NCBI GenBank assembly: GCA_947172415.1
Contig: OX359197.1
Span: forward strand, 7,255,673 to 7,319,672
Length of the DNA: 64,000 nt
From: Chondrosia reniformis
Taxonomy: Eukaryota; Porifera; Demospongiae; Chondrillida; Chondrillidae
Direction: 5' to 3'
Positions 2,636-37,075 of this stretch are shown one piece after another; within the stretch, counting starts at the first letter, position 1, and each line of letters opens with the position of its first letter. The notes beneath the pieces are model-generated. The model did no database searches, was not told where the DNA came from, and saw only the letters and a list, made by a program, of their open reading frames with translations. A program made the translations under genes and the position numbers.

Positions 2636-2643
2636 TTTGGAAA

Positions 2644-3226: not shown

Positions 3227-5497
3227 TCAAAATAGTCCAGCGTCCTTTTTCAGTGAAGTCTGCTTCCAAGGAGGCAGAGATGAGAAGTCCGTCCGTGACA
3301 TATTAAACACGTTCTACATAAGGCACATACAATTATGTTTTGCTATGCAGACAATAACAAAATACTAAATTAGTATACATTAAGCCAAGTATGACACTGG
3401 TAGGAGAAGGGACACATGGAATCCACCAAGTATTTACCTTAAAGTCCTCATCTCCAAGGTAGGTTTCTAATTTCTTTGGATCAACTCCCTCGGGGAGAGG
3501 CTTCTTTTTCAGCTCAGCCAGCGAGTATCTGTCTCTGCTCAGCTTCTTCAGCTCCTCTGAAGCATCTGATCGATGAGGACTCTTGATGATCACAAAAGGT
3601 CTGTTAGCCTCGGCCACCTTCTTATCACTCTCCCAGGATGGAAAGAGATTGGTGAACCGCTGGTGTTCAAAACCAGCAGAGACAACGTAAACATGAGGCT
3701 CCACAATGCGACCAGTAGCTACACACAGGAAGACCAATTAATCATATCAATACATAAGAATTAAAAAGTTTATAGATGATAATTGAGAATGATTACCAAT
3801 GGTTCGATTATCGCTTCATAGATTTTAACTGATAATTATGTTACATGTTATATTTGTAAGCACAACAAAATATTATATATTTATTGAGAGCAGTCATTAG
3901 TTAGGAAGGCAAATGATTCAATATTAAGCATTTATGAACTAAAGAAGTTAATTGCACTCAGCTGTGCAGAGGCTATGATGATAAGCACATAATCACTGGA
4001 AATATACGTATTACACCAAACCAGCCAAGTGATATAAGCCATTTATGTTCACTGATATCAGTAAAATGTAAATAAAATCTCAGATGCCAAATCAAGTGTA
4101 CTCACCCTTGGAGTAGTTGACAGCAGTCTCCAGTGCTAATCTTTTGTCTCTTATGAATCTGACTTGAGCATCTCCAGTAAACTGGTTCTTTTCTCTGAAA
4201 CGTGGATCCGACTGCACCGGCCACCAGCCAGACCACACATAGATCTCATATTGAGCGTCCAATAGGAAGAGAGCTGAGGGTGATGGGGCAGGCAGACTGT
4301 AAACAGGAGACCATTACAGCAAGGGGGAGTACCTGTGTTGTAGTGGCTTACCAGGTTGTTCACAAGAGTATAAGTCCGTTTGTAGGAAGGGAAAGGCTTC
4401 CGGCTCTCCTGTCCTGCAAGGATAGAGGATCTCTGTTGGGAGGAACTCTCCTGTAGACTCCACACTTGGAGCCAAATTACATTATCTAGTTATATAGCAC
4501 TGTACAGTTGGGATGCTACACCAACTCACTCTTAGCAGTAGTTGGGTTCTTTGTATTTGTCACTTTAGCTGTTGTTTGTGTGGATGGAGTGACTTTAGCT
4601 GTTGACACGTTAGTTGGTTCTTTGGAAACTGCACTGTCTTCACAACTTGAAGACATGGACGATTGAGAATGTCTCTTTGAAGCATTCCCTTTCTTGTTGG
4701 ATAACTTGATTTTGTGTGGAGAAGATTGAAGGGTCTTCTGAGATTTAGTGGTACTTGTCTCTGTGGACATGTGCTTGGGCTTCTTGGGTTTAGAAGTGAC
4801 TTCAACTTCAGTTGTATTTTTCTTTTTTCCTTTTGACTGGTCACATTGAACAACAGTGCATTTGACTCTAACACACAAAAGAACTACAAACGTACAACAT
4901 TCTTAAATAGGAACTGTGTGACTGAAGGTATATAATATAGGGTATGGCAGGTAATCTTATTTAGACTGGGAAGGCTATTATTACTGGACTACTATTAAGG
5001 CACAAGTGATAATGAAATATCTATACATTCCTAGCTTCACCATTTAATACAACACTAATACCAAATATTACTTGTGGATATACTGTATTGGTCCTTAAGA
5101 CATGTTTAGTATACATCATTTATATTATTAGTTGTGGTACTACACAACATCAGAAAGTACATCTATAATGTCAATGTTAGGTACAACCTACTATAGACAT
5201 ACTGCAAAGCATTGCTCTTCGTTCATATGTCAGTGTGCACATATGAAATGGACCAACATACCGAATTGTGTCGTTATCCTTTAGCAGATGAATGTCTTCT
5301 TGAGGAAGCAGCGCACAGTCGTCCATTGTGAGGTCCAGTTTGACGCCACGCAGATCTTCGAAGAACCTCTTCTTGATGGCGCCACACAGATCAGCAATGA
5401 CGGAACAGGATGTCAGATTTATGAGAAACCAAACGAACTGCGGACAAGCAGGAGGAGGGTTGACGAACAATAACTTCAACCTTATGGAGTCGGCCAT
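3227..5497 (-). CDS. Coilin-N / supervillin-C chimeric gene, unit U1 (frame intact)
   Basis: Six exons on the minus strand: 5262-5497, 4530-4867, 4352-4450, 4106-4273, 3438-3718 and 3227-3313. Phases match at every junction (2, 1, 1, 1, 0), giving a 402-residue frame. Exon 1 is the coilin self-association domain and exon 2 the Ser/Thr/Lys linker (CTVVQCDQSKGKKK). Exon 3 opens in the middle of a supervillin exon (EFLPTEILYPCRTGEPEAFP). Exon 4 is the last gelsolin-like repeat (ALFLLDAQYEIYVWSGWW). Exons 5-6 are its end (FTNLFPSWE) and the villin headpiece ([19 protein letters not shown] ... KKDAGLF). The exon 3 acceptor is TCTACAG, retained here and in U7 only. If exon 3 is skipped or unspliced, exon 2 runs into a stop after KSELV, leaving a truncated coilin. 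Whether the gene is transcribed is unknown. Confidence 0.6.
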
Positions 5498-5587
5498 TTT
5501 ATATCTTAGACAATCTAAATATCAAATGCGAAACATTTTGAAGTTATTACAAAGCAATAATCTATAAAGTATATCTCGTTATATCTG

Positions 5588-7807
5588 TCAGAGTACTAGT
5601 ACAACAATTCTCTTGTTTCTACTGTCAGCAATATATAGATTTCCTTCATCACTGATAACAAGACTATAAGGAAGGTCCAACCCAACTTCACCAACACACT
5701 GTCCATCTGGTGTGAAGATGGAGATTTTGTTAGAACTAGATGATGCAACTATTATGTGTCCATCACTTGTGACAGCTATACCAGTGGGGTGCTTGACAAT
5801 GTCTTCACCAAACTGTCGGATGTACCGTCCATCCTGATCATGTACTTTGATGCAATGATTATTATAATCTGTAATGTACACTAATCCATCTGGTGATATA
5901 CAGAGGTACCAGGGATATGCAAAGTGACCTGCTCCATTGCCACGTGAACCAAAGGATCTTAGGAACTGACCATTCTCTGTAAATACAGATATTCTATGAT
6001 TGCTATTTTCTACTATGAAAAGGTGTCCCTCCTCATTGACTGCCACTCCTGTAGGACTACTTAATTGACCTTGTTTTGACCCTTGACCTCCAAACTGTCT
6101 TACTTGCTGACCAGTTGGAGTGTAGATCTTGATAACATGGTTGCTACAGTCACTAATGACAATGTTACCAGATTTGATGAAAGTTATCCCATAGACATAG
6201 CCACAATCATTCTTAAATCTTCTCGCAATTTGACCTGTCCCATTAATAACAAGGATTTCTTTGGTGTAGTCATTTGCAGCATACAACATTCCATCTGATC
6301 CACAAGCTACTGCATAGCATTCTCCACCAATCTTTATCTCATTTTGGATTTCGTTCATCTTCTTTATATCCAATGTCTTAGCAACCTTCACCTCTACTGG
6401 ACTTCCCACTACGTAGTGACCTCCGATGGTCACACTCAGCATACATTCGAGTGATGGAACACTCTTAAAGTGTACCTCATATGTGCCATCTCTCTTGTCT
6501 GTTACTTTACCTCTCAGAGGAACACCTGCTGTCACAGGACAAAGGACAGCCGACACCATTTCTCCTCCTCTGCACTCATTGCCTCTCTCATCTCTGGTGG
6601 TGACTTTGAAGAAAAATTCTTTCTTCTTCTGTATTTGAATGATGGCAGCACCATCTTTGTTCTTCTTCAACCCTCTAATACTGCAGTTTGGTGGATGTGC
6701 CTGCAAGCAGACTCCTCCAAATGAAGACAATGTCTTCTCTGTTTCGGATCGCTTGGAAGAGATAAACTGGACAGATGGGTGAATGTAGGAAGATGGCTGA
6801 GGACTATGTCCAGTAAGTTTGTACACTCGTTTGACCATCATCTTGGTCAAGTACAGCTGTTCTTCTCTTCTTCCATTTGAAAAGATGTCTTCTGAAAAGG
6901 AAAGAAACTCCTCCCATTTCTTCATTTTAACTTGAAGCACTTTTCTCCGCTTGACAAGAGCTTTTCTTCCGATTTCTTCCGTTTTCCTCACTTCACTAAC
7001 AAGACTATCACATCTTCTAGTTACAATGGCAATTAGCTGTTCCTTCATTGTAAGGATCTCCCCTACAGCATCAGTGGACTGCTGTTGGAGACTAGCTTCA
7101 CTGGCCTCCACTTCCTGAAGGGCATTGCTCAATGCCTTTGTCTGTCCCCTGGCAGACAGCACACACTGTGTCAGAGTGCTCCTGTTTAGCTCTACCAGTT
7201 TGTCATTGATTAAGGACACACTGTGAGTCTTGTGGCCACCAACAGAATGACATATGGCACAGATCATCTGTTGACAGTCGTGACAGTATAGCTTCTTCTT
7301 TTCATTGTGTTCTTCACATTGGAAAAGAGTGTTGGATTGAAGAATGCTATCTACTTCATGAACACCCTTCTTCAAGATTTCTTTCACTGACTGAATCTGG
7401 TGTTTCTTTAATATCTTATTGGATTTATGAAGATCAGTACACTCCTGACATATGAAGGTATCACAGTCTGTGCAGTAGCTCACGGCTGCCCTCTTCTCTT
7501 CGTGGTCCTCTTGACAGACCACTCCTTCCTTCTGATACTGACTGCTCACTGTCTTCCTCAGTGCAAAGGGATGGCTCGGAAGACCACTGGGAGGGATGGA
7601 GAACACTTCATCACAGATCTCACAGGTCACTCCTTGTTGGAGCATCTTCTCCTGACACTCCACCTTCTCACACAAGGCAAGGGAGTGCAGACAAGGTAGA
7701 CATTTAAGCTCTTCTACTCTCACTTCACAACTGACACAAGAGAGACTGAGATTAGTTGATGGAAAAGAAGAACTAGAAGTGGGTGGAACCTCTGGAAGCT
7801 CAGCCAT
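5588..7807 (-). CDS. TRIM-NHL protein, copy T1 (739 aa)
   Basis: Intact single exon. Order: RING-like zinc finger (about 24-65), B-box1 (98-136), B-box2 (164-195), coiled coil (205-330), filamin-type Ig (375-490) and six NHL repeats (500-739). This is the class VII TRIM layout (TRIM2/3/32/71 relatives), cytoplasmic E3 ligases or RNA regulators in other animals; activity here is not shown. The start is set at MAELPEVPP because all copies share it. An in-frame ATG at 7930 would add 41 residues, but only T1 and T7 are open there and the sequence is promoter-like. The NHL block around 5,930-6,120 is nearly identical to that of T4, although T1 has the other B-box1 type. The upstream region is of class B (ends CCACCATTACCAAATC), shared only with T7. 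Confidence 0.9.
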   Translation of the reverse strand: MAELPEVPPTSSSSFPSTNLSLSCVSCEVRVEELKCLPCLHSLALCEKVECQEKMLQQGVTCEICDEVFSIPPSGLPSHPFALRKTVSSQYQKEGVVCQEDHEEKRAAVSYCTDCDTFICQECTDLHKSNKILKKHQIQSVKEILKKGVHEVDSILQSNTLFQCEEHNEKKKLYCHDCQQMICAICHSVGGHKTHSVSLINDKLVELNRSTLTQCVLSARGQTKALSNALQEVEASEASLQQQSTDAVGEILTMKEQLIAIVTRRCDSLVSEVRKTEEIGRKALVKRRKVLQVKMKKWEEFLSFSEDIFSNGRREEQLYLTKMMVKRVYKLTGHSPQPSSYIHPSVQFISSKRSETEKTLSSFGGVCLQAHPPNCSIRGLKKNKDGAAIIQIQKKKEFFFKVTTRDERGNECRGGEMVSAVLCPVTAGVPLRGKVTDKRDGTYEVHFKSVPSLECMLSVTIGGHYVVGSPVEVKVAKTLDIKKMNEIQNEIKIGGECYAVACGSDGMLYAANDYTKEILVINGTGQIARRFKNDCGYVYGITFIKSGNIVISDCSNHVIKIYTPTGQQVRQFGGQGSKQGQLSSPTGVAVNEEGHLFIVENSNHRISVFTENGQFLRSFGSRGNGAGHFAYPWYLCISPDGLVYITDYNNHCIKVHDQDGRYIRQFGEDIVKHPTGIAVTSDGHIIVASSSSNKISIFTPDGQCVGEVGLDLPYSLVISDEGNLYIADSRNKRIVVLVL

Positions 7808-8124
7808 TTGATTTGGTAATGGTGGGATGATGTGACTTTGAAATAAGAAAGGAGCTAAATATATCAAACTATATGCTGTGTATACAGTACGTACACGTAA
7901 ACATTCTATATAATCTAGGAACTCTGCCATGGATATAGTTTAGTTTCATTTAGTAAGTTTCTTTTCAATTTCAAGAATGAGAATAATAGAAAATTTCGTT
8001 TCTAGTGTCGACATCAGCATTATGAAAAAGAGTGTCTCCCTATCACTGATAGCAATACTCTATTATATGTGCATGCATATGCATATATAGTTGTTGGCTG
8101 ATTTTGAGTTTTATCAATTAATTA

Positions 8125-10230: not shown

Positions 10231-10777
10231 TTTATTTGGTAATGTAATGGGGATCATATGACTTTAAATTGAGGGAGGAGCTAACTAGTTTCTATTAAAC
10301 TATTAAACAGTCCAAATTTATATGTGCAAAGACGTTTGTGAGTTATAAATTGCAATTTCAAATGGCTTTGTAAATTTCAGTATTTAGGAACTAAAGTACT
10401 TTCACTGAATTCATTCAGTTACTTTGGTTTTAAACTTAAAGAATGGAAATTAGAGAAGTTCAATGACAGCCTCCTTTCTAGTGTCAGCAATATATAAAGA
10501 GTGTCTCCATCACGGATAGCAATACCATATATAGGACCATTCAATCTCCCGGGCCAGCAACCTATTTCTATTTGAAGTGGTCTCTCTATCTATGGGTTAG
10601 GGCTCGGAGAAAGTCTCCCTATTAATCCACTACATGGGTTCTCACTATATACGACCTGTATCTGCAGTTGAACAGATATAGAGAATACTGTACTCCCTTC
10701 TGATACAAGAAACATGCAAAATCAAATTATACTATAATATGTACAATAATTAATATAACAAAAGTGCATTCAGTCCA

Positions 10778-13060
10778 TCAAAATAGTCCAGCGTCCTTTT
10801 TCAGTGAAGTCTGCTTCCAAGGAGGCAGAGATGAGAAGTCTGTCCGTGACATTTTAAACACGTTCTACATAAGGCACATACAATTATGTTTTGCTATGCA
10901 GACAATAACAAAATACTAAATTAGTATACATTAAGCCAAGTATGACACTGGCAGGAGAAGGGACACATGGAATCCACCAAGTATTTACCTTAAAGTCCTC
11001 ATCTCCAAGGTAGGTTTCTAATTTCTTTGGATCAACTCCCTCGGGGAGAGGCTTCTTTTTCAGCTCAGCCAGCGAGTATCTGTCTCTGCTCAGCTTCTTC
11101 AGCTCCTCTGAAGCATCTGATCGATGAGGACTCTTGATGATCACAAAAGGTCTGTTAGTCTCAGTCACCTTCTTATCACTCTCCCAGGATGGAAAGAGAT
11201 TGGTGAACCGCTGGTGTTCAAAACCAGCAGATATAACGTAAACATGAGGCTCCACAAGCGACCAGTAGCTACACACAGGAAGACCAATTAATCATTTCAA
11301 TACATAAGGATTCAAAAGTTTATAGATGATGAATGATTATCAATGGTTTGATTATCGCTTCATAGATTTTAACTGATATTAACATTGCATTATATATTTA
11401 AAAGTGCAACAAAATATTATTTATTTATTGAGAGCAGTCATTAGTTAGGAAGGCAAATGATCCAATATTAAGCATCTATGAACTAAGGGAGATAATTGCA
11501 CTCAGCTGTGCAGAGGCTATGATGATAAGCACATAATCACTGGAAATGTATTACACCAAACCAGCCAAGTGACATAAGCCATTTATGTTCACTGATATCA
11601 GTAAAATGTTAATAAAATCTAAGATGCCAAATCAAGTGTACTCACCCTTGGAGTAGTTGACGGCAGTCTCCAGTGCTAATCTTTTGTCTCTTATGAATCT
11701 CACTTGAGCATCTCCAGTAAACTGGTTCTTTTCTCTGAAACGTGGATCCGACTGCACCGGCCACCAGCCTGACCACACATAGATCTCATATTGAGCGTCC
11801 AATAGGAAGAGAGCTGAGGGTGATGGGGCAGACAGACTGTAAACAGGAGACCATTACAGCACGGGGGAGTACCTGTGTTGTAGTGGCTTACCAGGTTGTT
11901 CACAAGAGTATAAGTCCGTTTGTAGGAAGGGAAAGGCTTCCGGCTCTCCTGTCCTGCAAGGATAGAGGACCTCTGTTGAGAGGAACTCTCCCGTAGACTC
12001 CACACTTGGAGCCAATTACATTATCTAGTTATATAGCACTGTACAGTTGGGATGCTACACCAACTCACTCTTAGCAGTAGTCGGGTTCTTTGTATTTGTC
12101 ACTTTAGCTGTTGTTTGTGTGGATGGAGTGACTTTAGCTGTTGACATGTCATGACACGTCAGTTGGTTCTTTGGAAACTGCACTGTCTTCACAACTTGAA
12201 GAACTGGACGATTGAGAATGTCTCTTCGAAGCATTCCCTTTCTTGTTGGATAATTTGACTTTGTGTGGAGAAGATTGAAGAGTCTTCTGCGATTTAGTGT
12301 TACTTGTCTCTGTGGACATGTGTTTTGGCTTCTTGGGTTTAGAAGTGACTTCAACTTCAGTTGTATTTTTTCTCTTTTTTCCTTTTGACTGGTCACATTG
12401 AACAACAGTGCATTTGACTCTAACACACAAAAGAACTACAAACGTACAACATTCTTAAATAGGAACTGGGTGACTGAAGGTATATAATATAGGGTATGGC
12501 AGGTAATCTTATTTAGACTGGGAAGGCTATTATTAACTGGACTACTATTAAGGCACCAGTGATAATGAAATATCTATACATTCCTAGCTTCACCATTTAA
12601 TACAATACTAATACCAAATATTACCTGTGGATGTACTGTATTGGCCCTTAAGACATGTTTAGTATACATCACTTATATCATTAGTTGTGGTACTACACAA
12701 CATCAGAAAGTATATCTATAATGTCAATGTTAGGTACAACCTACTGTAGATATACTGCAAAGCATAGCTCTTCGTTCATATGTCAGTGTGCACATATGAA
12801 ATGGACCAACATACCGAATTGTGTCGTTATCCTTAAGCAGATGAATGTCTTCTTGAGGAAGCAGCGCACAGTCGTCCATTGTGAGGTCCAGTTTGACGCC
12901 ACGTAGATCTTCAAAGAACCTCTTCTTGATGGCGTCACACAAATCAGCAATGATGGAACAGGATGTCAGATTCATGAGAAACCAAACGAACTGTGGACAA
13001 GTAGGAGGAGGGTTGACGAACAATAAATAACTTCAACCTTATAATTACCGAGTCGGCCAT
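10778..13060 (-). pseudogene. Coilin/supervillin chimera, unit U2 (disrupted)
   Basis: Exon equivalents: 12815-13060, 12069-12419, about 11892-11987, 11646-11813, 10989-11268 and 10778-10864. Three independent lesions break the frame. Ten extra bases lie in exon 1 just after the start (normal length 236, here 246). A short duplication in exon 2 (gacatgtcatgacacg) shifts the linker. One base is missing at the start of exon 5 (ccacaagcgacc versus ccacaatgcgacc elsewhere). The headpiece and gelsolin-like exons are otherwise well preserved. Confidence 0.8.
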
Positions 13061-13179
13061 TTTATACCCTATTTGAGTACGTTTAAGACTATTGAATAGA
13101 AAATCAATTAAAAATTCATTAACATTAAAAATTTTGAAGCTATTACAAAGCAGTAAAGTAAAGCCCGTTATATCAGTCA

Positions 13180-13226
13180 GAGTACTAGTACAACAATTCT
13201 TTTGTTTCCATAGTCAGTAATATATG
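13180..13226 (-). pseudogene. TRIM-NHL C-terminal relic
   Basis: The minus strand reads YITDYGNKRIVVLVL then stop, the normal TRIM C-terminus, but upstream it joins TRIM promoter-like sequence at about 13,230. The 13,230-13,799 spacer contains a second promoter-like stretch and another degraded SDR-type NHL relic near 13,600, and no gene. This is what remains of a deleted TRIM copy. Confidence 0.7.
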
Positions 13227-13799
13227 TGGAAAGACATTTGTGAGTTATAAATTGCAATTTCAAATGGCTTTGTAAATTTCAGTATCTAGGAACTAAAGTA
13301 CTTTCACTGAATTCATTCAGTGAGTTTGGTTTTCAACTTTAAGAATTGAAATGAGACAATTAGACAAATTAGACTCTTAAAGTGTATGCGTATATACTTG
13401 TCATGTGTCTGTATGTGGCTTGTACAGTTAATTGGCAGTATAAAGTATTTCAGTATATATCAGTATATATCTAGGAATTAATGGAACTATGTCACTGATT
13501 TAGTTTTGTTTCATTTAGTGAGTTTGGTTTCAATTTCAAGAATGAGAATAATAGAAAAGTTCAATGATAACCTCATGTCTAGTGTTAGCATTATAAAGAG
13601 TGTATTCCCATCACTGATAGCAATACTCTATCAGATGTGTACGTATTTGATGGTTATTATCTGATTTAGATTTTTTAGCAATTAAGGTTTAAATTAAATT
13701 TTAAGTTTACAAAGTTATATATAAAATAGAAGCTATTACAAAGCAAGGATCTATGAAGCTCATTATATCAGTCAGAGTAGTAATAAGTAAAGCATATCT

Positions 13800-16544: not shown

Positions 16545-18338
16545 TCAAAATAGTCCAGCGTCCTTTTTCAGTGAAGTCTGCTTCCAAGGAGGCAGAGATG
16601 AGAAGTCCGTCCGTGACATTTTAAACACGTTCTACATAAGGCACATACAATTATGTTTTGCTATGCAGACAAATAACAAATACTAAATTAGTATACATTA
16701 AGCCAAGTATGACACTGGCAGGAGAAGGGACACATGGAATCTACCAAGTATTTACCTTAAAGTCCTCATCTCCAAGATAGGTTTCTAATTTTTTTGGATC
16801 AACTCCCTCGGGGAGAGGTTTCTTTTTCAGCTCAGCCAGCGAGTATCTGTCTCTGCTCAGCTTCTTCAGCTCCTCTGAAGCATCTGATCGATAAGGACTC
16901 TTGATGATCACAAAAGGTCTGTTAGCCTCGGTCACCTTCTTATCACACTCCCAGGATGGAAAGAGATTGGTGAACCGCTGGTGTTCAAAACCAGCAGACA
17001 CAACATAAACATGAGGCTCCACAATGCGACCAGTAGCTACACACAGGAAGACCAATTAATCATATCAATACATTAGGAGTCAAAAGTTTGATAGATTGAG
17101 AATGGTTTGATTATCGCTTCATAGATTTTAACTGATAATTACATTATATATTTATAAGCACAACTGTGTTGTAGTGGCTTACCAGGTTGTTCACAAGAGT
17201 ATAAGTCTGTTTGTAGGAAGGGAAAGGCTTCCGGCTCTCCTGTCCTGCAAGGATAGAGGACCTCTGTTGGGAGGAACTCTCCCGTAGACTCCACACTTGG
17301 GGCCAATTACACTATCTAATTATATAGCACTGTACAGTTGGGATGCTACACCAACTCACTCTTAGCAGTAGTCGGGTTCTTTGTATTTGTCACTTTAGCT
17401 GTTGTTTGTGTGGATGGAGTGACTTTAGCTGTTGACACGTTAGTTGGTTCTTTGGAAACTGCACTGTCTTCACAACTTGAAGAACTGGACAATTGAGAAT
17501 TAATGTCTCTTCGAAGCATTCCCTTTCTTGTTGGATAATTTGATTTTGTGTGGAGAAGATTGAAGGGTCTTCTGAGATTTAGTGTTACTTGTCTCTGTGG
17601 ACATGTGCTTTGACTTCTTGGGTTTAGAAGTGACTTCAACTTCAGTTGTATTTTTTCTCTTTTTTCCTTTTGACTGGTCACATTGAACAACAGTGCATTT
17701 GACTCTAACACACAAAAGAACTACAAACGTACAACATTCTTAAATAGGAACTGTGTGACTGAAGGTAGCATATAATATAGGGTATGGCAGGTAATCTTAT
17801 TTAGACTGGGAAGGCTATTATTACTGGACTACTATTAAGGCACCAGTGATAATGAAATATCTATACATTCCTAGCTTCACCATTTAATACAACACTAATA
17901 CCAAATATTACTTGTGGATATACTGTATTGGTCCTTAAGACATGTTTAGTATACATCACTTATATCATTAGTGGTGGTACTACACAACATCAGAAAGTAT
18001 ATCTATAATGTCAATGTTAGGTACAACCTACTGTAGACATACTGCAAAGTATAGCTCTTCGCTCGTATATCAGTGAGCACATATTAAATGGACCAACATA
18101 CCGAATTGTGTCGTTATCCTTAAGCAGATGAATGTCTTCTTGAGGAAGCAGCGCACAGTCGTCCATTGTGAGGTCCAGTTTGACGCCACGAAGATCTTCA
18201 AAGAACCTCTTCTTGATGGCGCCACACAGATCAGCAATGACGGAACAGGATGTCAGATTCATGAGAAACCAAACGAACTGTGGACAAGCAGGAGGAGGGT
18301 TGACGAACAATAACTTCAACCTTAACCGAGTCGGCCAT
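16545..18338 (-). pseudogene. Coilin/supervillin chimera, unit U3 (exon deleted)
   Basis: Exon equivalents: 18102-18338, 17360-17704, about 17183-17278, 16756-17036 and 16545-16631. The gelsolin-like exon 4 and its flanking introns are missing; the deletion point is near 17,166, where intron 4 runs straight into intron 3 sequence. Exon 1 has one extra T after the start (GGTTAAGG for GGTAAGG), and exon 2 carries an insertion near 17,500 that shifts the frame and stops after NASKRH. Headpiece exons 5-6 stay intact. Confidence 0.82.
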
Positions 18339-21331: not shown

Positions 21332-22650
21332 TCAAAATAGTCCAGCGTCCTTTTTCAGTGAAGTCTGCTTCCAAGGAGGCAGAGATGAGAAGTCTGTCCG
21401 TGACATTTTAAACACATTCTACCAAAGGCACATACAATTATGTTTTGCTATGTGGACAAATAACAAAATACTAAATTAGTATACATTAAGCCAAGTATGA
21501 CACTGGTAGGAGAAGGGACACATGGAATCCACCAAGTATTTACCTTAAAGTCCTCATCTCCAAGGTAGGTTTCTAATTTCTTTGGATCAACTCCCTCGGG
21601 GAGAGGCTTCTTTTTCAGCTCAGCCAGCGAGTATCTGTCTCTGCTCAGCTTCTTCAGCTCCTCTAAAGCATCTGATCGATGAGGATTATTTGATTATCGC
21701 TTCACAGATTTTAACTGATAATTACGTTACATGTTATATTTGTAAGCACAACAAAATATTATTTACTTATTGAGAGTCATTAGTTAGGAAGGCAAATGAT
21801 CCAATATTAAGCATCTTTGAACTAAGGAAGTTAATTGCACTCAGCTGTGCAGAGGCTATGATGATAAGCACATAATCACTGTATTACACCAAACCAGCCA
21901 AGTGACATAAGCCATTTATGTTCACTGATATCAGTAAAATGTAAATAAAATCTCAGATGTCAAATCAAGTGTACTCACCCTTGGAGTAGTTTACGGCAGT
22001 CTCCAGTGCTAATCTTTTGTCTCTTATGAATCTCACTTGAGCATCTCCAGTAAACTGGTTCTTTTCTCTGAAACGTGGATCCGACTGCACCGGCCACCAG
22101 CCAGACCACACATAGATCTCATATTGAGCGTCCAATAGGAAGAGAGCTGAGGGTGATGGGGCAGACAGACTGTAAACAGGAGACCATTACAGCACGGGGG
22201 AGTGCCTGTGTTGTAGTGGCTTACCAGGTTGTTCACAAGAGTATAAGTCCGTTTGTAGGAAGGGAAAGGCTTCTGGCTCTCCTGTCCTGCAAGGATAGAG
22301 GACCTCTGTTGGGAGGAACTCTCCCGTAGACTCCACACTTGGAGCCAATTACATTATCTAGTTATATAGCACTGTACAGTTGGGATGCTACACCAACTCA
22401 CTCTTAGCAGTAGTTGGGTTCTTTGCATTTGTCACTTTAGCTGTTGTTAGTGTGGATGGAGTGACTTTAGCTGTTGTTTGTGTGGATGGAGTGACTTTAG
22501 CTGTTGACACGTCAGTTGGTTCTTTGGAAACTGCACTGTCTTCACAACTTGAAGAACTGGATGATTGAGAATGTCTCTTCAAAGCATTCCCTTTCTTGTT
22601 GAATAACTTGACTTTGTGTGGAGAAGATTGAAGAGTCTTCTGTGATTTAG
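21332..22650 (-). pseudogene. Coilin/supervillin chimera, unit U4 (both ends broken)
   Basis: Remaining pieces: end of exon 2 (22402 to about 22650), exon 3 (about 22225-22320), exon 4 (21979-22146), the 3' half of headpiece exon 5 (21544 to about 21685) and exon 6 (21332-21418). Exon 1 and intron 1 are gone, cut where the inverted TRIM fragment T4b begins. The 5' half of exon 5 and part of intron 4 are deleted at about 21,685 (gatgagga joined to ttatttgattatcg). Exon 2 carries two copies of the AKVTPST repeat. Confidence 0.82.
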
Positions 22651-22752
22651 TGGTACATATTTTACATATTTTACAGTTTAGACTGTTTACATAGAAACTA
22701 GTTAACTCCTTCCTCATTTCAAAGTCACATGATCCCAAGCATACCAAATAAA

Positions 22753-24004: not shown

Positions 24005-26276
24005 TCAAAATAGTCCAGCGTCCTTTTTCAGTGAAGTCTGCTTCCAAGGAGGCAGAGATGAGAAGTCTGTCCGTGACATTTTAAACACATTCTACCAAAG
24101 GCACATACAATTATGTTTTGCTATGTGGACAAATAACAAAATACTAAATTAGTATACATTAAGCCAAGTATGACACTAGTAGGAGAAGGGACACATGGAA
24201 TCCACCAAGTATTTACCTTAAAGTCCTCATCTCCAAGGTAGGTTTCTAATTTCTTTGGATCAACTCCCTCGGGGAGAGGCTTCTTTTTCAGCTCAGCCAG
24301 CGAGTATCTGTCTCTGCTCAGCTTCTTCAGCTCCTCTAAAGCATCTGATCGATGAGGACTCTTGATGATCACAAAAGGTCTGTTAGCCTCGGCCACCTTC
24401 TTATCACTCTCCCAGGATGGAAAGAGATTGGTGAACCGCTGGTGTTCAAAACCAGCAGACACAACGTAAACATGAGGCTCCACAATGCGACCAGTAGCTA
24501 CACACAGGAACACCAATTAATTATATCAATATATTAGGATTCAAAAGTTTATAGATGATGATTGAGAATGATTACCAATGGTTTGATTATCGCTTCATAG
24601 ATTTTAACTGATAATTACGTTACATGTTATATTCATAAGCACAACAAAATATTATTTATTTATTGAGAGCAGTCATTAGTTAGGAAGGCAAATGATCCAA
24701 TATTAAGCATTTATGAACTAAGAGAGATAATTGCACTCAGCTGTGCAGAGGCTATGATGATAAGCACATAATCACTGGAAATGTATTACACTAAACCAGC
24801 CAAGTGACATAAGCCATTTATGTTCACTGATATCAGTAAAATGTTAATAAAATCTCAGATGCCAAATCAAGTGTACTCACCCTTGGAGTAGTTGACAGCA
24901 GTCTCCAGTGCTAATCTTTTGTCTCTTATGAATCTCACTTGAGCATCTCCAGTAAACTGGTTCTTTTCTCTGAAACGTGGATCCGACTGCACCGGCCACC
25001 AGCCAGACCACACATAGATCTCATATTGAGCGTCCAATAGGAAGAGAGCTGAGGGTGATGGGGCAGACAGACTGTAAACAGGAGACCATTACAGCAAGGG
25101 GGAGTACCTGTGTTGTAGCGGCTTACCAGGTTGTTCACAAGAGTATAAGTCTGTTTGTAGGAAGGGAAAGGCTTCCGGCTCTCCTGTCCTACAAGGATAG
25201 AGGACCTCTGTTGGGAGGAACTCTCCCGTAGACTCCACACTTGGAGCCAATTACATTATCTACTTATATAGCACTGTACAGTTGGGATGCTACACCAACT
25301 CACTCTTAGCAGTAGTTGGGTTCTTTGTATTTGTCACTTTAGCTGTTGTTTGTGTGGATGGAGTGACTTTAGCTGTTGACACGTCAGTTGGTTCTTTGGA
25401 AACTGCACTGTCTTCACAACTTGAAGAACTGAACAATGGAGAATGTCTCTTCGAAGCATTTCCTTTCTTGTTGGATAATTTGACTTTGTGTGGAGAAGAT
25501 TGAAGAGTCTTCTGTGATTTAGTGGTACTTCTCTCTGTGGACATGTGTTTTGGCTTCTTGGGTTTAGAAGTGACTTCAACTTCTTCAGTTGTATTTTTTC
25601 TCTTTTTTCCTTTTGACTGGTCACATTGAACAACAGTGCATTTGACTCTAACACACAAAAGAACTACAAACGTACAACATTCTTAAATAGGAACTGTGTG
25701 ACTGAAGGTATATAATATAGGGTATGGCAGGTAATCTTATTTAGACTGGGAAGGCTATTATTACTGGACTACTATTAAGGCACCAGTTATAATGAAATAT
25801 CTTACATTCCTAGCTTCACCATTTAATACAACACTAATACCAAATATTACCTGTGGATGTACTGTATTGGTCCTTAAGACATGTTTAGTATACATCACTT
25901 ATATCATTAGTTGTGGTACTACACAACATCAGAAAGTATATCTATAATGTCAATGTTAGGTACAACCTACTATAGACATACTGCAAAGCATAGCTCTTCG
26001 TTCGTATGTCAGTGAGCACATATGAAATGGACCAACATACCGAATTGTGTCGTTATCCTTTAGCAGATGAATGTCTTCTTGAGGAAGCAGCGCACAGTCG
26101 TCCATTGTGAGGTCCAGTTTGACGCCACGAAGATCTTCAAAGAACCTCTTCTTGATGGCGCCACACAGATCAGCAATGACGGAACAGGATGTCAGATTCA
26201 TGAGAAACCAAACGAACTGTGGACAAACAGGAGGAGGGTTGACGAACAATAACTTCAACCTTACCGAGTCGGCCAT
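24005..26276 (-). CDS. Coilin-N / supervillin-C chimeric gene, unit U5 (frame intact, weak exon 3 acceptor)
   Basis: Exons 26041-26276, 25304-25647, about 25127-25222, 24881-25048, 24217-24497 and 24005-24091. Exon 1 starts MADSVRLKLLFVNPPP. All exons are open and in phase (403 aa) provided exon 3 starts after the GGGAG of TCTACGGGAG; the TCTACAG acceptor used in the U1 model is TCTACGG here. No pyrimidine tract precedes either choice. A stronger downstream acceptor, TATCCTTGCAG, would put the gelsolin-like part out of frame. So either a chimeric or a coilin-only product is possible. Headpiece residues ([25 protein letters not shown]) are intact. Confidence 0.5.
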
Positions 26277-28625: not shown

Positions 28626-30369
28626 TTTGGGATCATGTGACTTTGAAATTAGGGAGGAGCTAAATATATCAAACTATTCGTTATGTAAACAGTCCAAACA
28701 TTTATAATTTGGGTTGAACAGTAAATTGGCAATGTAAATTTCAGTTTCTAGAAACTAAAATACTTTCAATGAATTCATTTAGTGAGTTAGCATGGTTTTC
28801 AACTTAAGAATGGAAATTAATAATTAATAGAAAGGTTAATGATAGCCTCCTTTCTCTTATATTAGACTGCTAAATATGCAACATATACAGTGTTACTATA
28901 GAGTGTCTCCATCACTGATAGCAATACCATATATAGGACCATTCAATCTCCCTGGCCAGCAACCTATTTCTATTTGAGGTGATCTCTCTATCTATGGGTT
29001 AGGGCTCGGAGAAGGTCTCCCTATTAATCCACTACATGGGTTCTCAGTATATACGACCTGTATCTGCAGTTGAACAGATATACAAAATACTATACTCCCT
29101 TCTGATACAAGAAACATGCAAAATCAAATTATACTATAATATGTACAATAATTAATATAACAAAAGTGCATTCAGTCCATCAAAATAGTCCAGCGTCCTT
29201 TTTCAGTGAAGTCTGCTTCCAAGGAGGCAGAGATGAGAAGTCCGTCCGTGACATTTTAAACACGTTCTACATAAGGCACATACAATTATGTTTTGCTATG
29301 CAGACAAATAACAAAATACTAAATTAGTATACATTAAGCCAAGTATGACACTGGCAGGAGAAGGAACACATGGAATCCACCAAGTATTTACCTTAAAGTC
29401 CTCATCTCCAAGGTAGGTTTCTAATTTCTTTGGATCAACTCCCTCGGGGAGAGGCTTCTTTTTCAGCTCAGCCAGCGAGTATCTGTCTCTGCTCAGCTTC
29501 TTCAGCTCCTCTGAAGCATCTGATCGATGAGGACTCTTGATGATCACAAAAGGTCTGTTAGCCTCGGCCACCTTCTTATCACTCTCCCAGGATGGAAAGA
29601 GATTGGTGAACCGCTGGTGTTCAAAACCAGCAGAGACAACGTAAACATGAGGCTCCACAATGCGACCAGTAGCTACACACAGGAAGACCAATTAATCATA
29701 TCAATACATTAGGATTCAAAAGCTTATAGATGATGATTGAGAATGATTACCAATGGTTTGATTATCGCTTCATAGATTTTAACTGATATTAACATTACAT
29801 TATATATTTAAAAGTGCAACAAAATATTATTTATTTATTGAGAGCAGTCATTAGTTAGGAAGGCAAATGATCCAATATTAAGTTTTTTATGAACTAAAGG
29901 AGTTAATTGCACTCAGCTGTACAGAGGCTATGATGATAAGCACATAATCACTGGCAATGTATTACACTAAACCAGCCAAGTGACATAAGCCATTTATGTT
30001 CACTGATATCAGTAAAATGTTAATAAAATCTAAGATGCCAAATCAAGTGTACTCACCCTTGGAGTAGTTGATGGCAGTCTCCAGTGCTAATCTTTTGTCT
30101 CTTATGAATCTCACTTGAGCATCTCCAGTAAACTGGTTCTTTTCTCTGAAACGTGGATCTGACTGCACCGGCCACCAGCCAGACCACACATAGATCTCAT
30201 ATTGAGCATCCAATAGGAAGAGAGCTGAGGGTGATGGGGCAGGCAGACTGTAAACAGGAGACCATTACAGCACGGGGGAGTACCTGTGTTGTAGTGGCTT
30301 ACCAGGTTGTTCACAAGAGTATAAGTCTGTTTGTAGGAAGGGAAAGGCTTCCGGCTCTCCTGTCCTGCA

Positions 30370-30526
30370 ACCCGTATACTGTAGACATACTAGATATACT
30401 GCGAAGCAACACTCGTATGTAGCTCTTCGTTCGTATGTCAGTGTGCACATATGAAATGGACCAACATACCAAATTGTGTCGTTATCCTTTAGCAGATGAA
30501 TGTCTTCTTGAGGAAGAGAGGTGATA
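30370..30526 (-). repeat. Coilin exon 1/intron fragment inserted into supervillin exon 3 of U6
   Basis: Between gtcctgcaa and tagaggacc, adjacent in all other units apart from a few bases, lie about 157 bases matching the 3' end of coilin exon 1 (LLPQEDIHLLKDND coding) and the start of its intron, in the same orientation as the host gene. It looks like a templated insertion copied from a neighbouring unit at a repaired break. Confidence 0.75.
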
Positions 30527-30654
30527 AATAGAGGACCTCTGTTGGGAGGAACTCTCCCGTAGACTCCACACTTGGAGCCAATTACATTATCTAGTTATAT
30601 AGCACTGTACAGTTGGGATGCTACACCAACTCACTCTTAGCAGTAGTCGGGTTC

Positions 30655-30800
30655 TTTGTATTTGTCACTTTAGCTGTTGTTAGTGTGGATGGAGTGACTT
30701 TAGCTGTTGTTTGTGTGGATGGAGTGACTTTAGCTGTTGTTAGTGTGGATGGAGTGACTTTAGCTGTTGTTTGTGTGGATGGAGTGACTTTAGCTGTTGA
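30655..30800 (-). repeat. 30-base coding minisatellite in the coilin linker
   Basis: Unit TTTAGCTGTTG...GTGGATGGAGTGAC (plus strand), 30 bases, encodes AKVTPSTQTT or AKVTPSTLTT. Copy number varies between units: one in U1, U2, U3 and U5, two in U4 and U7, four in U6. The length is a multiple of three, so the frame is preserved. Confidence 0.85.
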
Positions 30801-31816
30801 CACGTTAGTTGGTTCTTTGGAAACTGCACTGTCTTCACAACTTGAAGAAATGGACGATTGAGAATGTCTCTTTGAAGCATTCCCTTTCTTGTTGGATAAC
30901 TTGACTTTGTGAGGAGAAGATTGAAGGGTCTTCTGTGATTTAGTGGTACTTGTCTCTGTGGACATGTGCTTTGGCTTCTTTGGTTTAGAAGTGACTTCAA
31001 CTTCAGTTGTATTTTTTCTCTTTTTTCCTTTTGACTGGTCACATTGAACAACAGTGCATTTGACTCTAACACACAAAAGAACTACAAATGTACAACATTC
31101 TTAAATAGGAACTGTGTGACTGAAGGTATATAATATAGGGTATGGCAGGTAATCTTATTTAGACTGGGAAGGCTATTATTACTGGACTACTATTAAGGCA
31201 CCAGTGATAATGAGATATCTTACATTCCTAGCTTCACCATTTAATACAACACTAATACCAAATATTACCTGTGGACATACTGTATTAGTCCTTAAGACAT
31301 AATTTAGTGACATCACTTATATCATTAGTTATGGTACTACACAACATCAGAAAGTATATCTATAATGTCAATGTTAGGTACAACCTACTATAGACATACT
31401 GCAAAGCATAGCTCTTCGTTCGTATGTCAGTATGCACATATGAAATGGACCAACATACCGAATTGTGTCGTTATCCTTTAGCAGATGAATGTCTTCTTGA
31501 GGAAGCAGCGCACAGTCGTCCATTGTGAGGTCCAGTTTGACGCCACGCAGATCTTCAAAGAACCTCTTCTTGATGGCGCCACACAGATCAGCAATGACGG
31601 AAATGGATGTCAGATTCATGAGAAACCAAACGAACTGTGGACAAGCAGGAGGAGGGTTGACGAACAATAACTTCAACCTTATGGAGTCGGCCATTTTTTA
31701 TCTTATTTGAAATCGACGTACATCTAAATATCCAATGCGAAATTCAATTAATATTAAAAAAAATTGAAGCTATTACAAAGCAGTAATGATCTATAAAACA
31801 TAGCTCGTTATATCAG

Positions 31817-34021
31817 TCAGAATATTAGTACTACAATTCTCTTGTTTCCACTGTCAGCAATATATAGATTTCCTTCATCACTGATAGCAAGTCCATAAGG
31901 AAGGTCCAACCCAAGATTATCAACTTTACCAACACACTGTCCATCTGGTGTGAAGATGGAGATTTTGTTAGCACTGTATGATGAAACTGTTATGTGTCCA
32001 TCACTTGTGACTGCTATACCAGTGGGGTGCTTGACAATGTCTTCACCAAACTGTCGGATGTACTGTCCATCCTGATCATGTACTTTGATGCAATCGTTGT
32101 TACAGTCACTGATGTACACTAATCCATCTGGTGATATACAGAGCTGCCAGGGATATTTAAAGCAACCTGCTCCACTGCCACGTGAACCAAAGCATTTTAG
32201 GAACTGACCATTCTCTGTAAATACAGATATTCTATGATTGCCACTTTCTGCTATAAAAACGTGTCCCTCCTTATTGACTGCCACTCCTATAGGACCACTT
32301 AACTGACCTTGCTTTGACCCTTGACCTCCAAACTGTCTTACTAGTTGACCAGTTGGAGTGTAGATATTGATAACTTGGTTGCTATAGTCACTAATGACAA
32401 TGTTACCAGATTTGCTGAAAGTTATCCCATGGACTTCATCACAATCATTCTTAAATCTTCTCACAATTTGATCTGCCCTGTTAATAACAAGGATTTCTTT
32501 GGTGTCGTGATTTGCAGCATACAACATTCCATCTGATCCACAAGCTACTGCATAGCATCTTCCACCAATCTTAATCTTCCTTTGGACTTTGTTTATCTTC
32601 TTGATATCCAATGTCTTAGCATCCTTCACCTCTACAGGACTGCCTACTACATGGTGACCTCCGATGGTCACACTCAGCATACACTCGAGTGATGGAGCAC
32701 ACTTAAAGTGTACCTCATATGTGCCATCTCTCTTGTCTGTTGCCTTACCTCTCAGAGGAACACCTGCTGTCACAGGACAAAGGACAGCCGACACCTTTTC
32801 TCCTCCTCGGCACTCATTGCCTCTCTCATCTTTTGTGGTGACTTTGAAGGAAAATTCTTTCTTCTGTATGTGAACAATGGCAGCACCATCTTCGTTCTTC
32901 TCCAACCCTCTAATACTGCAGTTTGGTGGATGTGCCTGCAAGCAGACTCCTCCAAATGAAGACAATGTCTTTTCTGTTTCAGATTGCTTGGAAGAGATAA
33001 ACTGGACAGATGGGTGAATGTAGCAAGAAGGCTGAGAACTATGTCCAGTAAGTTCATACACTCGTTTGACCACCATCTTGGTCAAGTACAGCTGTTCTTC
33101 TCTTCTTCCATTTGAAAAGATGTCTTCTGAAAAGGAAAGAAACTCCTCCCATTTCTTCATTTTAACTTGAAGCACTTTTCTCTGCTTGACAAGAGCTTTT
33201 CTTCCACTTTCTTCCGTTTTCCTCACTTCACCAACAAGACTATCACATCTTCTAGTTACCATGGCAATTAGCTGTTCCTTCATTGCAAGGATCTCTCCTT
33301 CAGCATCAGCAGACTGCTGTTGGAGACTAGCTTCACTGGCCTCCACTTCCTGAAGGGCATTGCTCAATGCCTTTGTCTGTCCCCTTGCAGACAGCACACA
33401 CTGTGTCAGAGTGCTCCTGTTTAGCTCTCCCAGTTTGTCATTGATGAAGGACACACTGTGAGTCTTGTGGCCACCAACAGAATGACATATGGCACAGATC
33501 ATCTGTTGACAGTCGTGACAGTATAGCTTCTTCATTTCATTGTGTTCTGAGCATTGGAAAATATCTTCTTTTGTAGAGCCACCTTCTAAGGTTTCATTAA
33601 TCGATTGGATTTGATGCCTCTTAAACATTTTCTTTGATCTGTGTAGATCTACACACTCTTGGCAAATAAAGAAATCACAGTCTGAGCAGTAGCTCACGGC
33701 TGCCCTCTTCTCTTCGTGGTCCTCTTGACAGACCACTCCTTCCTTCTGATACTGACTGCTCACTGTCTTCCTCAGAGCAAAGGGATGGCTTGGAAGACCA
33801 TCGGGAGGGATGAAGAACACTTCATCACAAATCTCACAGGTCACTCCTTGTTGGAGCATCTTCTCCTGACACTCCACCTTCTCACACAAGGCCAGGGAGT
33901 GCAGACAAGGTAGACATTTTAGCTCTTCTACTCTCTCTCCACAACTGACACAAGAGAGACTGAGATTAGTTGATGGAAAAGAAGAACTAAAAGTGGGTGG
34001 AACCGCTGGAAGCTCAGCCAT
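31817..34021 (-). CDS. TRIM-NHL protein, copy T6 (734 aa)
   Basis: Intact frame from MAELPAVPPT. The track-length frame has a further in-frame ATG seven codons upstream (34042), not chosen because the shared start is MAEL. Copy-specific residues: EVFFIPPDG in the RING tail, EHNEMKKLYC in B-box2, DAEGEILAMK in the coiled coil, and NQVINIYTPTG, NKEGHVFIAES and CNNDCIKVHDQDGQ in the NHL region. The last about 45 residues (GLDLPYGLAISDEGN to KRIVVLIF) are identical to T7. Class A upstream block follows at about 34,030-34,105. Confidence 0.9.
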   Translation of the reverse strand: MAELPAVPPTFSSSFPSTNLSLSCVSCGERVEELKCLPCLHSLALCEKVECQEKMLQQGVTCEICDEVFFIPPDGLPSHPFALRKTVSSQYQKEGVVCQEDHEEKRAAVSYCSDCDFFICQECVDLHRSKKMFKRHQIQSINETLEGGSTKEDIFQCSEHNEMKKLYCHDCQQMICAICHSVGGHKTHSVSFINDKLGELNRSTLTQCVLSARGQTKALSNALQEVEASEASLQQQSADAEGEILAMKEQLIAMVTRRCDSLVGEVRKTEESGRKALVKQRKVLQVKMKKWEEFLSFSEDIFSNGRREEQLYLTKMVVKRVYELTGHSSQPSCYIHPSVQFISSKQSETEKTLSSFGGVCLQAHPPNCSIRGLEKNEDGAAIVHIQKKEFSFKVTTKDERGNECRGGEKVSAVLCPVTAGVPLRGKATDKRDGTYEVHFKCAPSLECMLSVTIGGHHVVGSPVEVKDAKTLDIKKINKVQRKIKIGGRCYAVACGSDGMLYAANHDTKEILVINRADQIVRRFKNDCDEVHGITFSKSGNIVISDYSNQVINIYTPTGQLVRQFGGQGSKQGQLSGPIGVAVNKEGHVFIAESGNHRISVFTENGQFLKCFGSRGSGAGCFKYPWQLCISPDGLVYISDCNNDCIKVHDQDGQYIRQFGEDIVKHPTGIAVTSDGHITVSSYSANKISIFTPDGQCVGKVDNLGLDLPYGLAISDEGNLYIADSGNKRIVVLIF

Positions 34022-34699
34022 TTTGGAAATACTTGGGATCATGTGACTTTGAAATTAGGGAGGAGCTAAATATATCACACTATTCGTTATGTAAACAGTC
34101 CAAACCCATATTATGTATAACAGTATATTGTGTATAACATGTATGAACAGAAAATTGGCAATGCAATGTAAATTTTAGTTTCTAGAAGCTAAAATACTTT
34201 CAATGTATTCATTTAGTGAGTTAGCATGGTTTTCAACTTAAGAATGGAAATTAATAATTAATAGAAAAGTTAATGATAGTCTCCTTTCTATTATATTAGA
34301 CTGCCAAATTATACAACACATACAGTGTTACTATTATATATATATAGAGTATCTCCATCACTGATAGCAATACCATATATAGGACCATTCAATCTCACAA
34401 TAAAGTACTTTCACTGAGTTCTTTAGTTAAGTTTCAACTCCATCACTGATAGTAATACCATTATCAATCTCACAGGCCAAAATCTATTGTATTTAGAGGT
34501 GGTCTGTCTATCTATGGGTTAGGGCTCGGAGAAGGTCTCTCTATTAATCCACTACATGGCTTCTCACTATATACGACCTGTATCTGCAGTTGAACAGATA
34601 GACAGAATACTATACTCCCTTCTGATACAAGAAACATGCAAAATCAAATTATACTATAATATGTACAATAATTAATATAACAAAAGTGCATTCAGTCCA

Positions 34700-37075
34700 T
34701 CAAAATAGTCCAGCGTCCTTTTTCAGTGAAGTCTGCTTCCAAGGAGGCAGAGATGAGAAGTCCGTCCGTGACATTTTAAACACGTTCTACATAAGGCACA
34801 TACAATTATGTTTTGCTATGAAGACAATAACAAAATACTAAATTAGTATACATTAAGCCAAGTATGACACTGGTAGGAGAAGGGACACATGGAATCCACC
34901 AAGTATTTACCTTAAAGTCCTCATCTCCAAGGTAGGTTTCTAATTTCTTTGGATCAACTCCCTCGGGGAGAGGTTTCTTTTTCAGCTCACCAAGCGAGTA
35001 TCTGTCTCTGCTCAGCTTCTTCAGCTCCTCTGAAGCATCTGATCGATGAGGACTCTTGATGATCACAAAAGGTCTGTTAGCCTCAGTCACCTTCTTATCA
35101 CTCTCCCAGGATGGAAAGAGATTGGTGAACCGCTGGTGTTCAAAACCAGCAGAGACAACGTAAACATGAGGCTCCACAATGCGACCAGTAGCTACACACA
35201 GGAAGACCAATTAATCATATCAATACATTAGGATTCAAAAGTTTATAGATGATGATTGAGAATGATTACCAATGGTTTGATTATCGCTTCATAGATTTTA
35301 ACTGATAATTACGTTACATGAAAAATCTAATATACCATTTTCCTACATGCTATATGCCTATTCTGTAAAAAGAGCCTATAGGGGAACTAAACCTAAAGAG
35401 AGCTTTAGATGAAGATACAGGAGTCTTTTCTTCCTTCTTTCATCTTCTTCTCCACTGGGTCAGACAGCCGTTTCTGGGAATTCCACCCTTCATCAGTGAT
35501 CCTGGGAGTCTTTGTCTTTTTCTTTATCTTGATCTTCTAACATGTTATATTTATAAGCACAACAAAATATTATTTATTTATTGAGAGCAGGCATTAGTTA
35601 GGAAGGCAAATGGTCTAACATTAAGTTTTTTATGAACTAAAGGAGTTAATTGCACTCAGCTGTGCAGAGGCTATGATGATAAGCACATAATCACTAGAAA
35701 TGTATTACACTAAACCAGCCAAGTGACATAAGCCACTTATGTTCACTGATATCAGTAAAATGTTAATAAAATCTCAGATGTCAAATCAAGTGTACTCACC
35801 CTTGGAGTAGTTGACAGCAGTCTCCAGTGCTAATCTTTTGTCTCTTATGAATCTCAATTGAGCATCTCCAGTAAACTGGTTCTTTTCTCTGAAACGTGGA
35901 TCCGACTGCACCGGCCACCAGCCAGACCACACATAGATCTCATATTGAGCGTCCAATAGGAAGAGAGCTGAGGGTGATGGGGCAGGCAGACTGTAAACAG
36001 GAGACCATTACAGCACGGGGGAGTACCTGTGTTGTAGTGGCTTACCAGGTTGTTCACAAGAGTATAAGTCCGTTTGTAGGAAGGGAAAGGCTTCCGGCTC
36101 TCCTGTCCTGCAAGGATAGAGGACCTCTGTTGGGAGGAACTCTCCTGTAGACTCCACACTTCGAGCCAATTACATTATCTAGTTATATAGCACTGTACAG
36201 TTGGGATGCTACACCAACTCACTCTTAGCAGTAGTCATGTTCTTTGTATTTGTCACTTTAGCTGTTGTCTGTGTGGATGGAGTGACTTTAGCTGTTGTTT
36301 GTGTGGATGGAGTGACTTTAGCTGTTGACACGTTAGTTGGTTCTTTGGAAACTGCACTGTCTTCACAACTTGAAGAACTGGACGATTGAGAATGTCTCTT
36401 TGAAGCATTTCCTTTCTTGTTGGATAACTTGTCTTTGTGTGGAGAAGATTGAAGAGTCTTCTGTGATTTAGTGTTACTTGTCTCTGTGGACATGTGTTTT
36501 GGCTTCTTGGGTTTAGAAGTGACTTCAACTTCAGTTGTATTTTTTCTCTTTTTTCCTTTTGACTGGTCACATTGAACAACAGTGCATTTGACTCTAACAC
36601 ACAAAAGAACTACAAACGTACAACATTCTTAAATAGGAACTGTGTGACTGAAGGTATATAATATAGGGTATGGCAGGTAATCTTATTTAGACTGGGAAGG
36701 CCATTATTACTGGACTACTATTAAGAAAGAAAGTATATCTATAATGTCAATGATAGGTACAACCTACTGAATAGATATACTGCAAAGTATAGCTCTTCGT
36801 TCGTATGTCAGTGTGCACATATGAAATGGACCAACATACCGAATTGTGTCGTTATCCTTTAGCAGATGAATGTCTTCTTGAGGAAGCAGCGCACAGTCGT
36901 CCATTGTGAGGTCCAGTTTGACGCCACGCAGATCTTCAAAGAACCTCTTCTTGATGGCGCCACACAGATCAGCAATGACGGAACAGGATGTCAGATTCAT
37001 GAGAAACCAAACGAACTGTGGACAAGCAGGAGGAGGGTTGACGAACAATAACTTCAACCTTACCGAGTCGGCCAT
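34700..37075 (-). CDS. Coilin-N / supervillin-C chimeric gene, unit U7 (frame intact)
   Basis: Exons 36840-37075, 36223-36593, 36046-36144, 35800-35967, 34911-35191 and 34700-34786; phases agree throughout, giving 413 aa. It keeps the TCTACAG acceptor of exon 3, as in U1. Exon 2 has two AKVTPST repeats. Intron 1 is shortened to about 246 bases (roughly 395 in U1) by a deletion near 36,725, and intron 4 carries a 220-base insertion (35,316-35,538). U7 lies closest to the parent supervillin gene, with only T7 between. Coilin's self-association domain would be joined to an actin-binding headpiece; expression and localisation are unknown. Confidence 0.6.
35316..35538 (-). mobile_element. SINE/MITE-like insertion in intron 4 of U7
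   Basis: About 220 bases absent from every other unit, flanked by a repeated acatg (ttacatg left, aacatg right) where other copies have a single one, which fits a 5-base target duplication. The minus strand has an A/G-rich head (AAAGAAAAAGACAAAG) and a tail containing TTCCCCTATAGGCT and AGGAAAATGGTATATTAGA. The tail recurs at 42,930-43,075, 54,334-54,430 and 60,415-60,490, so it belongs to a dispersed family. No coding capacity seen. Confidence 0.65.

Follow-up and report, generated by a model that had tools for sequence, protein, structure and literature searches.

Sdic of Drosophila melanogaster is a chimera of sw and AnxB10: as outlined in PMC7475035, a duplication across the two adjacent genes fused them, the fusion was later multiplied in tandem, the array lies between its two parents, and its copies undergo gene conversion and non-allelic recombination. 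In Drosophila yakuba, tandem duplications produce chimeric genes through exon shuffling, and a population sample held 76 chimeric genes among 1116 duplications (as outlined in PMC5460883). Here we describe a chimeric gene array of the Sdic kind in the sponge Chondrosia reniformis, where the first two exons of coilin are joined to the last exons of supervillin; the evidence of how this array arose is unusually full. The window analysed is a 64,000-nucleotide stretch of chromosome 9 (C9:7255673-7319672, contig OX359197.1), and the genome scanned comprised 117,379,552 bases in 15 contigs. The assembly, odChoReni1.1, is described as 117.37 Mb in 14 chromosomes and a mitochondrion, with chromosomes 3, 7 and 9 (C3, C7 and C9) of 9.42, 8.46 and 7.7 Mb (summary data of PMC12181767).

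The sponge array resembles Sdic, as far as the outline in PMC7475035 goes, in a probable segmental duplication of two genes, tandem expansion of the chimera, the presence of flanking parents and, probably, gene conversion and recombination between copies. It differs in amplifying a TRIM-NHL gene that lies between the parents, in uniting a coilin 5' part with a supervillin 3' part, in having copies on other chromosomes, and in the large number of broken copies; it is also known here from sequence alone. Whereas the chimeras outlined in PMC5460883 are duplications of a population sample, the sponge case is a single high-copy array.

An array bounded by its two parents

An earlier note on this DNA had proposed recurrent units joining coilin exons 1-2 to the last supervillin exons. 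Seven such units (U1 to U7, Table 1; exons E1 to E6) do occur in the window, all on the minus strand, and the join is confirmed. The seven are nevertheless not the entire family, which is ruled out both by the genome scans and by the count on C9, where the interval 7.157-7.297 Mb holds 22 units that have E1 as well as E6, plus one partial unit (U4). Among the 22, U3 lacks E4 and the unit at 7170381 lacks much of E5. The scans of the sponge's own genome returned at least 33 headpiece stretches, a figure to which other genes on C10 and C11 contribute, and at least 29 coilin-N stretches. Related copies in the fetched stretches comprise three units on C3, accompanied by stray fragments, and two on C7. 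No N occurs in the 199,672 joined bases of C9, and scans of prokaryote genome contigs for contaminating relatives returned none.

The earlier note did not mention that both parent genes bound the array. Parental coilin lies at the left end (C9:7160715-7157925) with exons 1-2, its own intron 2 and four further exons (modelled), and its 507-amino-acid product carries Coilin_N and the coilin Tudor domain (2.8e-14). A supervillin-only piece (C9:7163719-7164304) also stands at the left of the array, and the parental supervillin gene stands at the right. In the latter, the counterparts of E3-E6 continue into two gelsolin repeats, one of 28.7 bits and one of 19.3, just short of the cut-off of 21; beyond them, and on the same strand, come long Ser/Lys-rich frames which we take to be the N-terminal part of supervillin; the name of this parent is our call, made from the headpiece match and the gene layout. 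The two parents share a strand. TRIM-NHL genes are interspersed among the C9 units, one lies between U7 and parental supervillin, and another lies to the right of parental coilin.

A tandem duplication of a segment reading coilin 5' - TRIM - supervillin 3' would bring supervillin 3' and coilin 5' sequence together at each junction and leave the intact parents outside. Both parents are found at the array ends in just this order, coilin left and supervillin right (its N-terminal exons being assigned tentatively), and the units accordingly look like junction products. Chimeric gene copies descended from a tandem-duplication junction are very probably the right explanation of the units, and in full the best one.

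Two side observations concern the same sequences. Unit pairs at C9:7175157-7177492 / 7222862-7225197 and at 7180681 / 7228386 are 100% and 99.6% identical, and since both pairs are spaced by 47,705 bases, they indicate that a portion of the array was duplicated recently. The 5' flank of parental coilin (upstream of C9:7160715) is unlike that of most units, in which the coilin ATG closely follows a TRIM stop; the promoters of parent and units may differ.

The junction and its splice acceptors

Frame and junction alignments covered 26 units of C9 and C3, leaving aside the two C7 units, the supervillin-only piece and the stray C3 fragments. The 5' part of one gene is joined to the 3' part of its neighbour at one junction common to 26/26 units, amplified in tandem; the unit at 7253737 has a 10-nucleotide deletion there. 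The units track coilin to ...GGCTCCAA in intron 2, after which most read ...GTGTGGAGTCTACGG/GAGAGTTCC, while parental supervillin reads ...GACTGTGGCAGCTAAGTTCATCTACGG/GAGAGTTCC at the same place. As the match passes from coilin intron 2 to the supervillin exon, the breakpoint lies in the coilin intron on one side and in the interior of the supervillin exon on the other. The acceptor of that exon and its first residues (PRLWQLSSSTG) are thereby excluded from the units. The alternative ending KSELV, which the earlier note had also recognized, is a read-through into coilin's own intron 2, and the GTGTAG form of the stop is present in all 26 units.

How the chimeric intron might be spliced is less straightforward. 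The two bases preceding E3 are GG in 21/26 units, AG in 4/26 and TG in one, so that the acceptors proposed at 4450 (U1) and 36144 (U7) do exist, together with those of two units outside the window, but are not conserved; the one proposed for U5 at 25222 would need GGGAG, a poor acceptor. Eighteen nucleotides downstream and in the same phase, at 4432 in U1, 25207 in U5 and 36126 in U7, CAACAG/AG is found in every aligned unit and also in the exon of the parent. Nine parental introns, modelled from sequence, all carry a C or T directly ahead of their acceptor AG. We infer that CAACAG is the likelier acceptor and that ACAG in U1, U7 and the two other units is newer. At the E3/E4 boundary a first model with CACAG/GTACTC was rejected: CCTG/GTAAGC with CTCAG/CTCTC yields EQPALFLLDAQYEIYVW, and the parent shows GC at the first site.

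Both C7 copies have a different structure, with coilin exons 1-2, intron 2 and coilin exon 3 followed by the middle of supervillin exon 4. Derivation from the C9 junction is ruled out, for they keep part of coilin exon 3, absent in the C9 units, and show no supervillin exon 3, which the C9 units keep. Because the two junctions retain different exons, coilin and supervillin would have been joined either in two separate duplications or in one longer chimera later cut by two deletions.

The predicted chimeric protein

The six-exon open frames claimed for U1, U5 and U7 are borne out, with spliced products of 402, 404 and 413 amino acids; the window's other four units have been disrupted, whether by frameshifts, by deletions or by an insertion. 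On C9 as a whole, 10/23 units are open end to end, including one whose linker is scrambled by compensating shifts (7180681) and one that has lost its E5 donor besides the 10 nucleotides at the junction (7253737). The supervillin part by itself is open to the full-length stop in 16/23 C9 units. Many copies could thus encode a predicted hybrid protein.

The spliced U1 product scores above the Pfam cut-offs for Coilin_N (3.6e-24) and for the villin headpiece domain VHP (3.2e-17). In phmmer, residues 209-402 align to a villin C-terminus, the best match being a solved supervillin headpiece (2.4e-17). Its gelsolin part reaches 13.8 bits against a cut-off of 21 and is not a complete repeat; the parent's equivalent repeat scores just 13.7 bits, and the low value alone is no proof of loss in the chimera. 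The supervillin tail envisaged in the earlier note therefore stands as regards a complete headpiece, but its last gelsolin-like repeat is not whole, the join being within the supervillin exon, and the description of the tail as an actin-binding module is weak.

Coilin and the chimera share Coilin_N and the basic linker; the chimera lacks the C-terminal Tudor domain, for which U1 gave no match, and the exons preceding it. With supervillin it shares a partial last gelsolin-like repeat and the complete headpiece; it has no counterpart of supervillin's N-terminal region or remaining gelsolin repeats, nor of the beginning of the last repeat. A search of open-licence literature for a coilin-supervillin fusion, or for coilin with a villin headpiece, found nothing relevant.

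Apparent constraint, possible conversion and the possible role of the units

Tests for selection covered the 22 E1-to-E6 units of C9 and U4, the three C3 units entering only part of one conservation comparison. Distinct variants were counted against the majority base, without a tree, and the introns of the units supplied the neutral spectrum, which in the nonsense and parent-dropped tests was rounded and given a value of 0.5 for CpG transitions; several classes were tested, so a p near 0.01 is weak. Omega was 0.69 for coilin N (p 0.21), 0.66 for the linker (p 0.09) and 0.44 for the supervillin part (p 0.0003), and for variants present in at least three units 0.11, 0.24 and 0.22, respectively. 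In a stricter test, which excluded parent alleles and merged near-identical units (21/23 kept), the three values were 0.68, 0.62 and 0.51 (p 0.20, 0.07 and 0.008), and for variants in at least two units 0.15, 0.51 and 0.23 (p 0.012, 0.09 and 0.004). The supervillin part, the best conserved part of the units, has 39 synonymous, 43 missense and one nonsense variant, against a neutral expectation of 92 missense and 8.3 nonsense (p 0.002 for nonsense), and the coilin part has three nonsense variants where 6.8 are expected (p 0.09). Out-of-frame indels number 8 in 236 nucleotides of E1, 6 in 338 of E2, 3 in 635 of E3-E6 and 30 in 1062 of introns. The substitutions suggest coding constraint, chiefly on the supervillin part, which gene conversion could mimic.

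Whether a functional family of coilin-N/headpiece fusions is expressed from the array, that is, whether the protein is made and used, is the question on which these figures bear, and our answer is a tentative one that leans somewhat towards no. Ten open frames with matching phases, a cryptic acceptor in every aligned unit and the low omega that shared variants show in coilin N and in the supervillin part all speak for such a family. Much weighs against it. Frames are broken in 13/23 units on C9 and 3/3 on C3, neither C7 copy is in frame at its junction, and coilin exon 1 takes frame-breaking indels at the intron rate (p 0.67). The indel deficit of E3-E6 is non-significant against short introns alone (p 0.21), and the share of in-frame indels is about equal in exons (6/23) and introns (9/39). 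Singletons are indistinguishable from neutral in every part (p 0.86, 0.43 and 0.21), and variants private to open units reveal no constraint on the coilin part (omega 1.60 and 1.15). Supervillin omega is much alike for variants private to broken units (0.55, p 0.08) and for those private to open ones (0.47, p 0.09), although selection on the fusion should set the two apart. Finally, the parent's allele is found in 8/14 supervillin-part variants common to at least three units, and gene conversion may for that reason imitate constraint. The ten open translations contain no Met ahead of exon 6 in the supervillin part, so this part is either translated only by way of the coilin exons or has kept its similarity through conversion with the parent.

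Otherwise the chimeras would be passengers of the TRIM-NHL expansion or makers of truncated coilin only. The idea that they are functionless passengers, their apparent constraint stemming from conversion with the intact parents and from shared ancestry, we hold about as probable as its negation. The broken and out-of-frame copies, the exon 1 indels, the recurring parent alleles and a constraint no weaker among variants private to broken units speak for it, as do the TRIM-NHL genes: of the 45 frames in the fetched stretches that start with MAELP, 28 are TRIM open reading frames of more than 600 amino acids. It accounts less readily for the supervillin omega, which stays below one even with parent alleles dropped, and for the depletion of nonsense variants there. 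For a truncated coilin N-domain protein ending in KSELV, a possible dominant-negative or assembly modulator whose supervillin tail is untranslated, one may point to the immediate stop in a retained intron 2 and to shared coilin-N variants that are mainly synonymous (6 synonymous, 2 missense); with exon 1 gathering indels like an intron and the supervillin part better conserved, this proposal appears improbable.

The events behind the array, on the explanation that we favour, would begin with coilin, a TRIM-NHL gene and supervillin in that order on a single strand. A duplication that started in coilin intron 2 and ended in the interior of a late supervillin exon would have placed the first coilin exons ahead of the last supervillin exons, and unequal crossing over and gene conversion may then have multiplied the segment, TRIM genes included. 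Some copies that share this junction would have reached chromosome 3, and copies with the other junction are found on chromosome 7. If transcribed from the coilin start, a unit would be spliced from the intron-2 donor to the cryptic acceptor inside the old supervillin exon (CAACAG/AG, or the newer ACAG/G in four units), giving a predicted product of approximately 400 amino acids with the coilin N-domain, the basic linker, a truncated gelsolin-like repeat and a complete headpiece. The boldest form of the fusion proposal, with around ten expressed hybrid proteins that tether the coilin self-association domain to a villin headpiece and arose with a new splice acceptor, and with selection at the level of the array while single copies decay, strikes us as unlikely.

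TRIM-NHL genes and other features of the window

The TRIM-NHL genes of the repeat (Table 1) evolve unevenly. Over 28 long open reading frames, with transitions weighted 2, the overall omega is 0.75, as against 0.35 in the B-box stretch (columns 100-200) and ~0.95 in the NHL stretch, and the array is a candidate for a recognition family that diversifies. A B-box under constraint beside a freely varying propeller is a plausible reason why the genes were amplified, and the chimeras may have been carried along with them. Among the matches listed for papers on TRIM-NHL expansion in sponges, none was to the point by title. Beside the broken U4, an inverted 5' half of a TRIM gene occupies 22699-23802 as an open frame of 357 amino acids, 91-97% complementary to direct copies; examination of the repeats around it gave nothing informative. 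Inside the supervillin gene region, a repetitive frame (HSPTPHPWGTISHSTLPYPAPLGYHQSLYTPLP and similar) runs on the other strand at 44167-45159.

Table 1. Coilin-supervillin units, parental supervillin and TRIM-NHL genes (window coordinates unless a chromosome is given).
Feature	Position	Strand	Remarks
U1 exon 1	5262..5497	-	Coilin N-domain
U1 exon 2	4530..4867	-	End of coilin N-domain and basic linker; stops at coilin's native intron-2 donor AAGA/GTGAGT
U1 chimeric intron 2	4451..4529	-	Coilin intron 2 to ~CTCCAA, then junction with supervillin exon
U1 exon 3	4352..4450	-	3' part of supervillin exon; alternative acceptor CAACAG/AG 18 nucleotides inside
U1 exon 4	4106..4273	-	Supervillin last gelsolin-like repeat
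U1 exon 5	3438..3718	-	Supervillin up to headpiece start
U1 exon 6	3227..3313	-	Villin headpiece end and stop
U2	10778..13060	-	Broken by frameshifts in E1, E2, E5
U3	16545..18338	-	Broken: E4 deleted, E1 and E2 frameshifted
U4	21332..22656	-	Partial: without E1, E2 in part, E5 minus 137 nucleotides; then inverted TRIM fragment
U5	24005..26276	-	Open frame, 404 amino acids; E1 26276-26041, E2 25647-25304, E3 25225-25127, E4 25048-24881, E5 24497-24217, E6 24091-24005
U6	29180..31694	-	Broken: E3 holds 155-nucleotide insertion with second E1/intron 1 piece; coilin part open
U7	34700..37075	-	Open frame, 413 amino acids; E1 37075-36840, E2 36593-36223, E3 36144-36046, E4 35967-35800, E5 35191-34911, E6 34786-34700
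Exon 1 of next unit leftwards	52..287	-	E6 of same unit at C9:7253737, beyond the window
Parental supervillin gene	40275..49997	-	C-terminal exons clear; N-terminal part, up to ~49997, tentative
TRIM-NHL gene of repeat	5588..7810	-	B-box, filamin, NHL; stretch of the TRIM-NHL array 5588-7930
TRIM-NHL gene	405-2656		Split in two frames
TRIM-NHL gene	8125-10257
TRIM-NHL gene	13800-16016
TRIM-NHL gene	18552-20759
TRIM-NHL gene	26397-28625
TRIM-NHL gene	31817-34042
TRIM-NHL gene	37194-39542
Two coilin-supervillin copies (L023, L024)	C7:2944593-2952475		Second junction

Perspective

This genome still retains both parents and the gene that separates them, together with the exact junction, 23 sister copies in states between open and badly broken and, on another chromosome, a second junction. 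Because parents, junctions and copies in all states persist side by side, the array permits testing how a chimeric intron gains an acceptor, and whether selection acts on the array or on single copies.

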